Assembly: GCA_030611725.1 (NCBI GenBank)
Contig: JAUWPG010000005.1
Coordinates: 1-37,590 of the forward strand
Reading direction: 5' to 3'
Source of the DNA: Gammaproteobacteria bacterium
GTDB taxonomy: Bacteria > Pseudomonadota > Gammaproteobacteria > PS1 > Pseudothioglobaceae
Length of the DNA stretch: 37,590 nucleotides
In this document: in pieces, positions 16,599 to 26,143 of the stretch
How positions within the stretch are numbered: position 1 is the first letter of the stretch
How the letters are laid out: every line of letters begins with the position of its first letter
Notes under the pieces: model-generated
The model's database searches: none
Seen by the model: only the letters and a program-made list of their open reading frames with translations
Told to the model about the DNA's origin: nothing
Position numbers and translations under genes: made by a program

Positions 16599-16605
16599 TA
16601 TACTT

Positions 16606-16637
16606 AAAGGCCTACATTGATTGTAGGCCTTTTTTTT
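16606..16637 (+). terminator. Intrinsic terminator after tRNA-Lys
   Basis: AAAGGCCTACA (16606-16616), a five-base loop and TGTAGGCC followed by eight T (16622-16637) form a strong GC-containing stem with a U-tract, only 7 bases after the CCA end. Confidence 0.93.
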
Positions 16638-16754
16638 CGCCTGCTAAAAAATACTGACTGATTAGTTCTATATTGATAGTATAGCGTCCTGACAAACTTG
16701 AACACAAAGATGGTTAGATAATCATTAATCAGCCTTAAGGCATATTCAGTTTTT

Positions 16755-16952
16755 TTATTGAATCTTTAAAGCTTCCACAGCGCCACCTTCCATAAAATAT
16801 TTTTGCTTAGTTACTTCAAGTTTCTGTAAAAATAAACCACTAATAGTTAATAATAATATTGACAGCGTGATTATTTTCCTTATAATATGAATTGTAATAT
16901 TTGCCCAATGCTGGGTGAAATAAACCGAATATCGATGTTCGTATCTTTTTTG
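16755..16952 (-). pseudogene. Possible remnant of a membrane-protein gene
   Basis: The minus-strand frame between stops at 16953-16955 and 16755-16757 reads 65 codons: a basic and aromatic stretch (KRYEHRYSVYFTQHWANI), a hydrophobic helix (LSILLLTISGLFLQ) and a tail (TKQKYFMEGGAVEALKIQ). It looks more protein-like than chance AT-rich sequence, but there is no ATG, GTG or TTG before the hydrophobic part. It may be the end of a decayed gene, or coincidence. It overlaps the consensus promoter on the other strand. Confidence 0.2.
16859..16886 (+). promoter_or_regulatory. Consensus sigma70 promoter upstream of urtA leader
   Basis: TTGACA (16859-16864), a 16-bp spacer and TATAAT (16881-16886) both match consensus perfectly. 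Transcription would begin near 16893, giving about 200 nt to the terminator at 17094-17101 and about 275 nt to the urtA start codon. No equally good promoter is seen between the terminator and urtA. Confidence 0.65.
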
Positions 16953-17048
16953 TTAGATTATATCTGACATAAAGTACGGACATTTTTTTTGGATTGTTGT
17001 AAAACAGCCGCCTTACAATCGCCGATGATATGTAAGTAGTAAACAATG

Positions 17049-17101
17049 AAGTTTACCCCTCTAAGTACTACCAAGTATAGAGAGGGGTGAACTTTTTTTT
17101 T
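17049..17101 (+). terminator. Intrinsic terminator (possible attenuator) before urtA
   Basis: AAGTTTACCCCTCT (17049-17062) pairs with AGAGGGGTGAACTT (17081-17094) over 14 bp with one G-T pair, and a run of nine T follows. The 5' arm overlaps a 6-bp hairpin GTAAAC/GTTTAC (17039-17044 with 17051-17056) that would exclude the terminator if formed, the layout expected for attenuation. It lies 67 bp before the urtA ATG. Confidence 0.85.
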
Positions 17102-17117
17102 GGCTAAAAAACAATAC

Positions 17118-17162
17118 GGCAAATTAAATTTATTAATTGCCTAATTTTAAAAAAAATAGGAG
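17118..17162 (+). promoter_or_regulatory. 5' UTR hairpin and strong ribosome binding site of urtA
   Basis: GGCAAATTAA and TTAATTGCC (17118-17141) can pair with one bulged base. AGGAG at 17158-17162 lies 5 bases before the ATG at 17168, a strong Shine-Dalgarno, and favours this start over the ATG at 17164. Confidence 0.55.
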
Positions 17163-17167
17163 TATGT

Positions 17168-18457
17168 ATGAAAATAAGTAAAAATATAAACAATATTGCA
17201 CTAGCCGCTGGCTTGGTTGTAAGTTTAAGTTCGACTGCATTTGCAGCTGAAACAATCAAAGTTGGTGTACTGCATTCACTATCAGGCACGATGGCTATTA
17301 GTGAAACAACATTGAAAGACACTATGTTAATGTTGATCGAAGATCAAAACAAAAAAGGTGGCGTTTTAGGTAAACAATTAGAAGCTGTTGTTGTAGATCC
17401 AGCATCGAACTGGCCATTATTCGCTGAGAAAGCTCGTGGTCTTATTGAAAACGATAAGGTTGCTGCCATTTTTGGTGCTTGGACTTCTGTATCAAGAAAA
17501 TCAGTATTACCTGTGATTGAAGAATTAAACAGTGTATTTTTCTACCCAGTACAGTATGAAGGTGAAGAATCATCTAAAAATGTTTTCTATACAGGTGCAG
17601 CGCCAAACCAACAGGCAATACCAGCTGTTGATTATCTTATGAATGATGTTGGTGTTAAGCGTTGGGTTTTAGCAGGAACTGATTATGTATATCCACGTAC
17701 AACCAATAAGATTCTTAAGGCGTACTTAGAGGCAAAAGGCGTGTCATCATCTGACATTATGGTTAATTACACTCCATTCGGACATTCAGATTGGCAAACC
17801 ATCGTTTCTGATATTAAGAAATTCGGATCTTCAGGCAAAAAGACTGCTGTAGTTTCAACTATTAATGGTGATGCTAATGTGCCTTTCTATAAAGAGCTGG
17901 GAAACCAAAGTGTTTCTGCATCTGATATTCCAGTGATAGCGTTCTCAGTAGGCGAGGAAGAGTTGTCTGGTTTAGATGCAACTCCATTAGTTGGTCATTT
18001 GGCTGCTTGGAATTACTTTATGAGTGTTGATGTTCCTGAAAATGATACTTTTATTGCTAAATGGAAGGCTTTCATTAAAGACGATAAGCGCGTAACAAAT
18101 GATCCAATGGAAGCACACTATATTGGTTTTAATATGTGGGTTAAGGCTGTTGAGAAAGCCGGCACTGTTGAAGCTAATGCTGTTCAGGATGCTATTATTG
18201 GCGTAACTACACCAAACTTGACAGGTGGTGTGTCTGTTATGTTGCCTAATCATCATATTACTAAGCCAGTATTGATCGGTGAAATTCAAGCCGATGGCCA
18301 GTTTGAAACTGTTTGGTCTACAAATGGTTTAGTTGCTGGTGATGCGTGGTCAGACTTCTTACCTGGATCTAAAGACTTGATTTCAGATTGGAGAAAGCCT
18401 TTAAGTTGTGGTAACTACAACGTTAAAACAGCTGTCTGTTCTGGACAAGATATTTAA
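17168..18457 (+). CDS. urtA: Urea ABC transporter, substrate-binding protein UrtA
   Basis: 429 residues. A signal peptide (KNINNIALAAGLVVSLSSTAFA) is followed by ETIKVGVLHSLSGTMAISETTLKDT, the hallmark start of UrtA/FmdD-type binding proteins in the branched-chain amino acid (type I periplasmic binding) family. AIFGAWTSVSRKSVLPV, NSVFFYPVQYEGEESSKNVFYTGAAPNQQ and DPMEAHYIGFNMW also match this group. It captures urea (or short-chain amides) in the periplasm for UrtBCDE. Compared with the genes behind it, arginine codons are mainly CGT/CGC (4 of 6). A terminator-like hairpin separates it from urtB, consistent with a surplus of binding protein over permease. Confidence 0.95.
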   Translation: MKISKNINNIALAAGLVVSLSSTAFAAETIKVGVLHSLSGTMAISETTLKDTMLMLIEDQNKKGGVLGKQLEAVVVDPASNWPLFAEKARGLIENDKVAAIFGAWTSVSRKSVLPVIEELNSVFFYPVQYEGEESSKNVFYTGAAPNQQAIPAVDYLMNDVGVKRWVLAGTDYVYPRTTNKILKAYLEAKGVSSSDIMVNYTPFGHSDWQTIVSDIKKFGSSGKKTAVVSTINGDANVPFYKELGNQSVSASDIPVIAFSVGEEELSGLDATPLVGHLAAWNYFMSVDVPENDTFIAKWKAFIKDDKRVTNDPMEAHYIGFNMWVKAVEKAGTVEANAVQDAIIGVTTPNLTGGVSVMLPNHHITKPVLIGEIQADGQFETVWSTNGLVAGDAWSDFLPGSKDLISDWRKPLSCGNYNVKTAVCSGQDI

Positions 18458-24443: not shown

Positions 24444-26143
24444 GTACTATTTCTAGAAGAGCCTATGCGGAAATGTATGGCCCTACAGTTGGGGATAAGG
24501 TCCGTTTGGGTGATACAGAGCTTTTTATTGAAGTTGAAAAAGACTTAACAACTTATGGCGAGGAAGTAAAATTTGGTGGTGGAAAGGTTATTCGTGATGG
24601 GATGGGACAAAGTCAACTTTGCGATAAAGAAGTTGTCGATGTTGTTATTACAAATGCACTGATCCTAGACCATTGGGGAATTATTAAGGCAGATATTGGC
24701 ATTAAAAATGGAAGAATTTCAGCAATAGGCAAGTCTGGAAATCCTGATATTCAATCGAATGTAGATATAGCCATTGGCGCTGGTACCGATGTTATTGCTG
24801 CAGAAGGTCAAATTGTTACAGCTGGCGGTGTTGATGCGCATATTCACTTTATCTGCCCTCAACAAGTAGAAGAGGCACTCATGTCTGGCATTACAACAAT
24901 GCTGGGCGGTGGCACAGGTCCTTCTGCGGGAACAAATGCAACAACGTGTACTCCAGGAATATGGAACATGCATAGGATGTTAGAGGCAGCTGAAGAGCTA
25001 CCAATGAATTTAGGTTTTATGGGTAAAGGCAATGCAAGCCTTCCTAAACCACTAGAAGAGCAAGTGTTGGCAGGTGCAATGGGTTTAAAGCTTCATGAAG
25101 ATTGGGGAACTACACCGGCAGCCATTGACAATTGTTTGTCGGTTGCTGAAAATTATGACATTCAAGTTGCTATTCACACAGACACTTTAAATGAATCTGG
25201 ATTTGTTGAAGATACTATCGCTGCTATAAATGGAAGAACAATACACACATACCACACAGAAGGTGCTGGAGGAGGTCATGCCCCAGATATTATCAAAGCC
25301 TGTGGATTTAGCAATGTACTACCATCCTCAACAAATCCCACAAGACCATACACAGTTAACACTGTAGATGAGCACCTAGATATGCTAATGGTTTGCCATC
25401 ATTTAGACCCATCTATCGCTGAAGATGTTTCGTTTGCCGAGTCTAGAATTAGAAGAGAGACGATTGCAGCAGAGGATATTTTGCATGATCTTGGTGCTTT
25501 CTCAATGATATCCTCTGACTCTCAGGCCATGGGTAGAGTGGGAGAGGTTATTATCAGGACCTGGCAAACGGCTAATAAAATGAAGATACAGCGTGGTCAA
25601 CTGGAAGGGGAGACTGCTAAAAATGATAATTCCAGGGCTAAAAGATACATTGCTAAATATACAATTAACCCAGCCATCACTCACGGAATATCACACGAAG
25701 TGGGCTCTATAGAGGTCGGTAAATTGGCTGATATTGTATTATGGAAACCTAAATTTTTTGGTGCAAAGCCTGGCGTTATTATTAAAGGTGGAATGATTGT
25801 AGCTGCCCCTATGGGCGATCCAAATGCATCAATTCCAACCCCTCAACCAGTGCATTATAGGACGATGTTTGGCGCTCTTGGGGCGGCTAGACTCAATACC
25901 AGAATGACTTTTTTATCTCAAGCCAGTATTGATGACGGGATTGTTGATAAGCTTAGCCTTAGGTCGTTAATTAGCCCAGTGAAAGCATGTAGATCTGTTA
26001 CCAAATCATCTATGATTCATAACAGTTATCAGCCACATATTGAAGTTGACTCTCAAACATATGAAGTTAAAGCCGATGGTGTTTTATTAACCTGTGAACC
26101 AGCAGAAGAGCTTGCACTTGCACAAAGATATTTTTTATTCTAA
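24440..26143 (+). CDS. ureC: Urease alpha subunit
   Basis: 567 residues, the catalytic subunit that hydrolyses urea to ammonia and carbamate at a di-nickel centre in the cytoplasm. All known ligands are present and fall on the same residue numbers as in Klebsiella UreC: H134 and H136 (DAHIHF), carbamylated K217 (GLKLHEDWG), H246 and H272 ([14 protein letters not shown]), D360 (SSDSQAMGR), plus the flap Cys319-His320 (MVCHHLDPS). There is no sign of inactivation. Arginine codons are AGA or AGG in 19 of 22 cases, in contrast to 5 of 33 in lysS. Confidence 0.98.

Follow-up and report, generated by a model that had tools for sequence, protein, structure and literature searches.

Two predicted ANTAR-type antitermination modules in series before the urea transporter genes urtABCDE

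The leader before urtA

We examined a window of 37,590 nucleotides (the whole stretch of DNA that was analyzed) from a bacterial genome of 1.16 Mb that is 99.8% complete, and we focus here on the region directly before urtA, the first gene of urtABCDE. TTGACA (16859-16864) and TATAAT (16881-16886), separated by a 16-nt spacer, form the sole perfect promoter site within 16600-17300, and the transcript start predicted from the position of this promoter is ∼16893. The predicted leader (16893-17101) is 209 nt long and folds at -71.5 kcal/mol (z = -7.84; 0 of 200 shuffles were as good), which upholds the claim of a structured leader made in a first-pass annotation of this DNA. The coordinates given in that annotation were also correct, namely, those of the promoter, a terminator with a 14-bp stem and nine T, and the short repeats TTACAA (17013-17018), TTGTAA (16997-17002), TGTAA (17031-17035), and GTAAAC/GTTTAC (17039-17056). 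The order of features is P1a, P2a, T1, P1b, P2b, T2, a small hairpin, the ribosome-binding site, and urtA, as follows:

16859..16886, + strand: sigma-70 promoter TTGACA-16-TATAAT, 12/12 consensus match
16900..16919, + strand: P1a, hexaloop hairpin with arms TTTGCCC and GGGTGAA and loop AATGCT at 16907-16912 (hexaloop listing, folding, covariation)
16926..16941, + strand: P2a, predicted antiterminator hexaloop hairpin with arms CGAAT and GTTCG and loop ATCGAT at 16931-16936 (hexaloop listing, folding, covariation)
16934..16990, + strand: T1, first predicted intrinsic terminator, eight T at 16983-16990 (-20.6 kcal/mol; kept in relatives)
17012..17036, + strand: P1b, hexaloop hairpin with 5' arm CTTACAATC, loop GCCGAT at 17021-17026, and 3' arm GAT-A-TGTAAG with one bulged base (folding)
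17039..17056, + strand: P2b, predicted antiterminator hexaloop hairpin with arms GTAAAC and GTTTAC and loop AATGAA at 17045-17050 (hexaloop listing, folding)
17049..17101, + strand: T2, second predicted intrinsic terminator, 14-bp stem, nine T at 17093-17101 (-27.1 kcal/mol)
17118..17141, + strand: short hairpin GGCAAATTAAATTTATTAATTGCC, after T2 and before the ribosome-binding site (-4.7 kcal/mol)
17168..18457, + strand: urtA, which opens urtABCDE and encodes the substrate-binding protein of the urea ABC transporter (TIGR03407, 565 bits above cut-off; open reading frame [ORF] list)

In both modules, the 5' arm of the terminator takes in the 3' arm of the preceding P2 hairpin (P2a for T1 and P2b for T2), and P2 and terminator are thus mutually exclusive. 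The first-pass annotation had read attenuator architecture from the overlap of the GTAAAC/GTTTAC hairpin with the 5' arm of the terminator, and it is this pair, P2b against T2, that forms the predicted switch. It was right about T2 but treated it as the single terminator and overlooked T1 (16934-16990); the leader consists of two modules with two terminators. Similarly, among the hairpins between promoter and terminator it had picked out GTAAAC/GTTTAC, which is P2b, and missed the hexaloop hairpins at 16900-16919 and 16926-16941. A second switch, in which TTACAA would alternate between TTGTAA and a further partner, did not hold up: pairing with the upstream TTGTAA is absent in two of the relatives described below (G013 and G023), and TTACAA is kept as an arm of P1b.

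When the growing transcript was folded, P1a and P2a were present up to ∼16977, and the T1 stem displaced P2a from 16982. Forcing P2a and P2b in the whole leader gave -52.9 kcal/mol compared to -71.5 kcal/mol, a cost of ∼19 kcal/mol, which suggests that the terminators are the default and that a bound protein is needed to hold the antiterminators. In a promoter scan of the + strand between T2 and urtA, no promoter-like site was found, in agreement with the earlier reading that no competing promoter follows the terminator. A sigma-54 promoter after T2 was rejected; TTGGC is conserved there, but by eye there was no correctly spaced GC element. Further, relatives have a hairpin of differing sequence at the place of the window hairpin at 17118-17141. 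Elsewhere in the window, the Rfam family 5_ureB_sRNA (RF02514) matched at 24591-24871 on the - strand (87.5 bits), antisense within ureC, and this match may merely reflect the conserved urease coding sequence.

Conservation and resemblance to ANTAR target RNAs

We searched 57 relatives by DNA similarity and all 83 available genomes of the window's bacterial family for urtA. The gene was present in seven of the 83 genomes, and in six of these seven (the window and five relatives, from genera g1, g6, and g8) the same leader lies directly before it, in the same direction. In the relatives, a promoter-like sequence directly precedes the 5' hairpin too, as judged by eye. The leader of the five relatives is a visible tandem duplication, each half of which comprises a hairpin, the motif GAAYAARGATGTTCG, and a terminator; GAAYAARGATGTTC forms a hairpin with the six-base loop AARGAT, and its 3' arm doubles as the 5' arm of the terminator. 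In the window, the sequence of the second half has been rebuilt, with a new P2b stem and a new terminator, and the layout is the same. At the P1b position, the relatives have an unbulged 11-bp hairpin. When hexaloop hairpins were listed mechanically, all four expected ones were recovered in five of the six leaders, with two deviations in detail (one bulged base in window P1b and a seven-base loop in P1a of G007).

The 12 urt modules were aligned by position, without selection for pairing. Standard pairs made up 93.9% of cells (81.3% in shuffles), changes on both sides occurred in 6 of 11 pairs, and the covariation score was 0.547, compared to 0.286 in shuffles (0 of 500) and at most 0.227 in slid controls; because the module sequences are related, these shuffle counts are not probabilities. 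Conservation of the stems, which the first-pass annotation had left to be examined, was thus found: both modules are kept in the five relatives with compensatory changes.

At three loci of relatives (L021 5050-5265, L022 5123-5341, and L009 1498-1716), the two terminator hairpins of the urt leader are near identical and able to cross-pair as a giant hairpin; sequence exchange between the two copies in the relatives is possible. A giant hairpin made from the terminator arms of both modules is the minimum-energy fold in G002 and G023. We rejected this structure as a by-product of the repeat, since hairpin 1 and its T run are transcribed first and the window modules are too diverged to cross-pair.

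The published ANTAR target, as described in the main text of PMC3369931, consists of two hairpins with hexanucleotide loops that carry A1 and G4, with P2 overlapping a terminator; for eutP of Enterococcus, the same text gives loop residues A29/G32 and A53/G56, an offset of 24 nt. The window loops have G4 in 4 of 4 cases and A1 in 3 of 4 (the exception is P1b, with G1), and the loop starts are offset by 24 nt in both window modules and by 23 to 24 nt in the relatives. All 12 urt modules have G4 in both loops and A1 in loop 2, and loop 1 begins with G instead of A in P1b of the window and in three modules of relatives. In the EutV-RNA crystal structure, G4 is the sole base-specific contact (PMC8934654), which fits the invariance of G4 in these modules and the tolerance of G at position 1 of loop 1. 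The loop-closing pairs of the window are C-G in P1a, P1b, and P2b and U-G in P2a (the SELEX preference is C-G); among 30 urt and glnK modules, P1 is closed by CG in 19 and UG in 10, and P2 by CG in 16 and UG in 14. Against an ANTAR target stand the G1 loops, the U-G closing pairs, and the linker of module 2, which is only ∼2 nt long, below the long P1b stem. A 3-nt linker impaired eutP according to the text of PMC3369931, although linkers between 2 and 25 nt occur among curated ANTAR RNAs.

By its sequence, the leader at 16893-17101 is two predicted ANTAR-type antitermination modules in series. The earlier statement that no known riboswitch class is recognizable here is correct as worded, but a known protein-binding class, ANTAR target RNA, does accommodate the element. 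The suggested comparison with Rfam, at gathering and at permissive thresholds, yielded no matching family for the leader and chance matches only. The leader is also not 6S RNA, which is present elsewhere in the window's genome.

Given its strong, conserved structure, its terminators, and the lack of an Rfam match, the leader could also be a riboswitch of a new class for urea, glutamine, nickel, or another metabolite, with the terminators as output. However, what is conserved is the pair of hexaloops with A/G1, G4, and fixed spacing, which leaves no larger aptamer core, and this pattern is common to the glnK and nirB leaders described below, in genomes encoding an ANTAR protein. We consider such a riboswitch highly improbable. 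The support for regulation at this locus comes from sequence, and it could be argued that the terminators are constitutive and partial, merely lowering urt expression, with a hexaloop pattern that is inherited or accidental. Yet the rebuilt second module of the window still keeps A1 (in P2b), G4, the 24-nt offset, and the overlap of P2 with the terminator, and a grammar scan (see below) showed the motif to be rare by chance; there is very little likelihood that constitutive termination explains the leader.

Related leaders and the ANTAR protein

A motif grammar (two hexaloops 21 to 26 nt apart with an overlapping terminator) was run on 1.8 Mb of strands, including 80 urtA loci from other bacteria, and matched only urt and glnK leaders of the window's family. 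On the dinucleotide-shuffled window, it gave 1 match in 752 kb. A model built from the urt modules only (R1) was too narrow, recovering the urt leaders and one weak glnK match. Model R3 was built from 30 urt and glnK modules, whose covariation was 0.713 versus 0.371, a count that leans toward pairing because the glnK modules were picked by the grammar. In the window's genome, R3 matched only the glnK and urt leaders at E < 0.05, and all three matches belong to the training set; thus, this result speaks for the absence of further strong sites and is not a discovery of the leaders themselves. Weak R3 matches at G000:C77 and C50 lie in apparent coding sequence without terminators and were taken as chance. 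R3 gave no credible match on 84 other urtA loci, and no match to the module core was found in viral contigs. Judged from these scans, the urt leader is specific to the window's bacterial family among the loci searched.

The glnK leader of the window's own genome (L148:3440-3640, G000:C36), which was detected by the untrained grammar, has tandem ANTAR modules as well. Module A is strong, and module B is slightly degenerate, with a first loop of five bases (AAGAT) and a second terminator. Among 28 glnK leaders of the family, module A was present in all 28 and the core of module B, by a strict pattern, in 23, and two T runs were visible in nearly all. Outside its training set, R3 found matches in several genomes before nirB-type nitrite reductase genes, whose leaders in G021, G101, and others carry two modules in series, and in G004 in the leader of a nitrate-transporter-like MFS gene (L249); the nirB and MFS transporter names rest on reading the translations. 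The nirB-type modules of relatives lie at L237, L238, L239, L242, L244, L245, and L250, several of which have two in series. Single R3 modules with terminator-like sequence also precede a porin-like ORF (L240:587-627, G003:C66) and a 60-amino-acid (aa) ORF (L241:2587-2629, G007:C90), and these genes are possible further members of the predicted regulon.

These leaders bear on a different reading of the locus, in which the main product is a terminated small RNA of ∼100 or ∼210 nt whose ANTAR hexaloops titrate an ANTAR protein, with urt secondary. The strong promoter and strong terminators would suit such an RNA, and ANTAR-site small RNAs have a precedent in EutX/Rli55, which titrates EutV (PMC8934654). 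However, the element lies directly before urtA and in the same direction in 6 of 6 genomes, no separate urtA promoter was found after T2, and equivalent leaders precede glnK and nirB. We therefore regard a small RNA as an improbable main product; small RNA function and urt attenuation could occur together.

The window's genome encodes exactly one ANTAR-domain protein (PF03861, 72.9 bits; G000:C36). It is a REC-ANTAR protein of 194 aa whose gene lies downstream of glnK-amtB, and among proteins of solved structure it best matches ANTAR regulators, NasR and AmiR among them. In its receiver, Asn (IVNADIP) aligns with the phospho-acceptor Asp, and the same Asn was seen in those family members read in which the receiver is present. 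NasS (PF13379) was not found in the window's genome by a search that was positive in 12 of 14 control genomes, and neither an amiC gene nor an AmiC-type sensor was found among the neighbors of the ANTAR gene. Between amtB and the ANTAR gene (L148:5231-5786, G000:C36) lie ∼550 bp without an ORF of at least 100 aa and with a terminator, which looks like remnant or inserted sequence; the corresponding gap in G003 and G007 is ∼90 bp by coordinates.

It is important to note, as a point against a link between the two, that leader and ANTAR gene were not always recovered together. G015 and G023 have the leader, but a search of their assemblies, which are 81% and 87% complete, respectively, found no ANTAR gene. 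Genome G003, with urtA at 88% identity (L030, G003:C7) and an ANTAR gene, lacks an ANTAR leader before urtA. Its urtA has a different upstream neighbor, an ABC-F type ATPase by reading, and separate acquisition, rearrangement, or contamination is possible.

Proposed mechanism and its relation to known systems

In all likelihood, the urtABCDE mRNA has 16893-17101 as its 5' leader, with two ANTAR-responsive attenuators in series and a single ANTAR protein as the switch. The modules, their spacing, mutual exclusion, and covariation, the single ANTAR gene, and the related leaders are features of the DNA itself, and we infer actual termination, protein binding, and the signal. In the simplest account, urt would be off by default and on with active ANTAR protein. 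Polymerase would leave the promoter at 16859-16886, and P1a and P2a would form first. Without active regulator, T1 would absorb the 3' part of P2a, and transcription would end near 16990; polymerases that pass T1 would face the same choice, P1b/P2b versus T2, with an end near 17101. Active ANTAR protein (G000:C36) would bind the hexaloops, hold P2a and P2b, and block both terminators, whereupon transcription would proceed into urtA. The same protein probably controls glnK-amtB via the equivalent tandem leader, and urea and ammonium uptake would thus be switched together by nitrogen status. Since the ANTAR gene lies near glnK-amtB, P-II or a metabolite of nitrogen status is plausible as the signal. 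Most likely, then, urt is switched by protein-dependent antitermination within a nitrogen regulon.

Leaders of eutP, eutG, eutS, and eutA in Enterococcus faecalis, with EutV, share the dual hexaloops, A1 and G4, the 24-nt loop distance, and the overlap of P2 with the terminator (main text of PMC3369931; PMC8934654). In contrast to that system, the leader here has two complete modules, the target is urea transport, and the receiver has Asn in place of the phosphorylated Asp of EutV. NasR with nasF (Klebsiella) and NasT-NasS with nasA (Paracoccus) also combine an ANTAR protein with a leader terminator before nitrogen-assimilation genes (PMC7496416, PMC5424462, PMC3795266), and relatives in the family studied here also have modules before nirB. 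Unlike NasR, the protein here is REC-ANTAR rather than nitrate-sensing, with its gene near glnK-amtB, and unlike NasT, it has no NasS detected in its genome. AmiC-AmiR (Pseudomonas) likewise uses ANTAR antitermination with a receiver that lacks the phospho-acceptor Asp (PMC4395418), whereas here amiC was not found beside the ANTAR gene and the target is a transporter operon.

In 2012, ANTAR RNAs were predicted in other bacteria before genes for P-II, for ammonium, urea, and nitrate transporters, and for nitrite reductase (main text and Figure 9 of PMC3369931). The kinds of targets are the same, urea transporters included, and the lineage here is different; going by that text, the mechanism and the type of target were both known before. 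The text also describes at least 13 attenuators in six transcriptional units of Desulfotomaculum acetoxidans, which suggests that serial arrangements may already have been seen. The literature searched, including the main text of PMC3369931, yielded no account of a single leader with two complete ANTAR attenuators in series. What is uncommon here is the serial double-module layout and an ANTAR protein without a phospho-acceptor Asp and without a NasS partner.

With this analysis, a structured leader that had no explanation becomes a regulatory switch that can be tested. The analysis also outlines a predicted nitrogen-acquisition regulon under one ANTAR protein, comprising glnK-amtB and urt, to which relatives add nirB and a nitrate-type transporter, in a group of small-genome bacteria in which nitrogen control appears little studied. 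With a receiver without a phosphorylation site and a genome without NasS, the adjoining P-II is an obvious signal candidate. Moreover, two serial attenuators, found family-wide, raise the question of why there are two terminators and whether the pair steepens the response. As a speculation, and one that is rather unlikely to be right as a whole, the family's ANTAR protein may be a phosphorylation-independent, general antiterminator of nitrogen status gated by GlnK (P-II) or a small molecule, and the serial modules may act as a multiplicative (AND-like) brake by which bacteria with small genomes would control their acquisition of urea, ammonium, and nitrite tightly and steeply.
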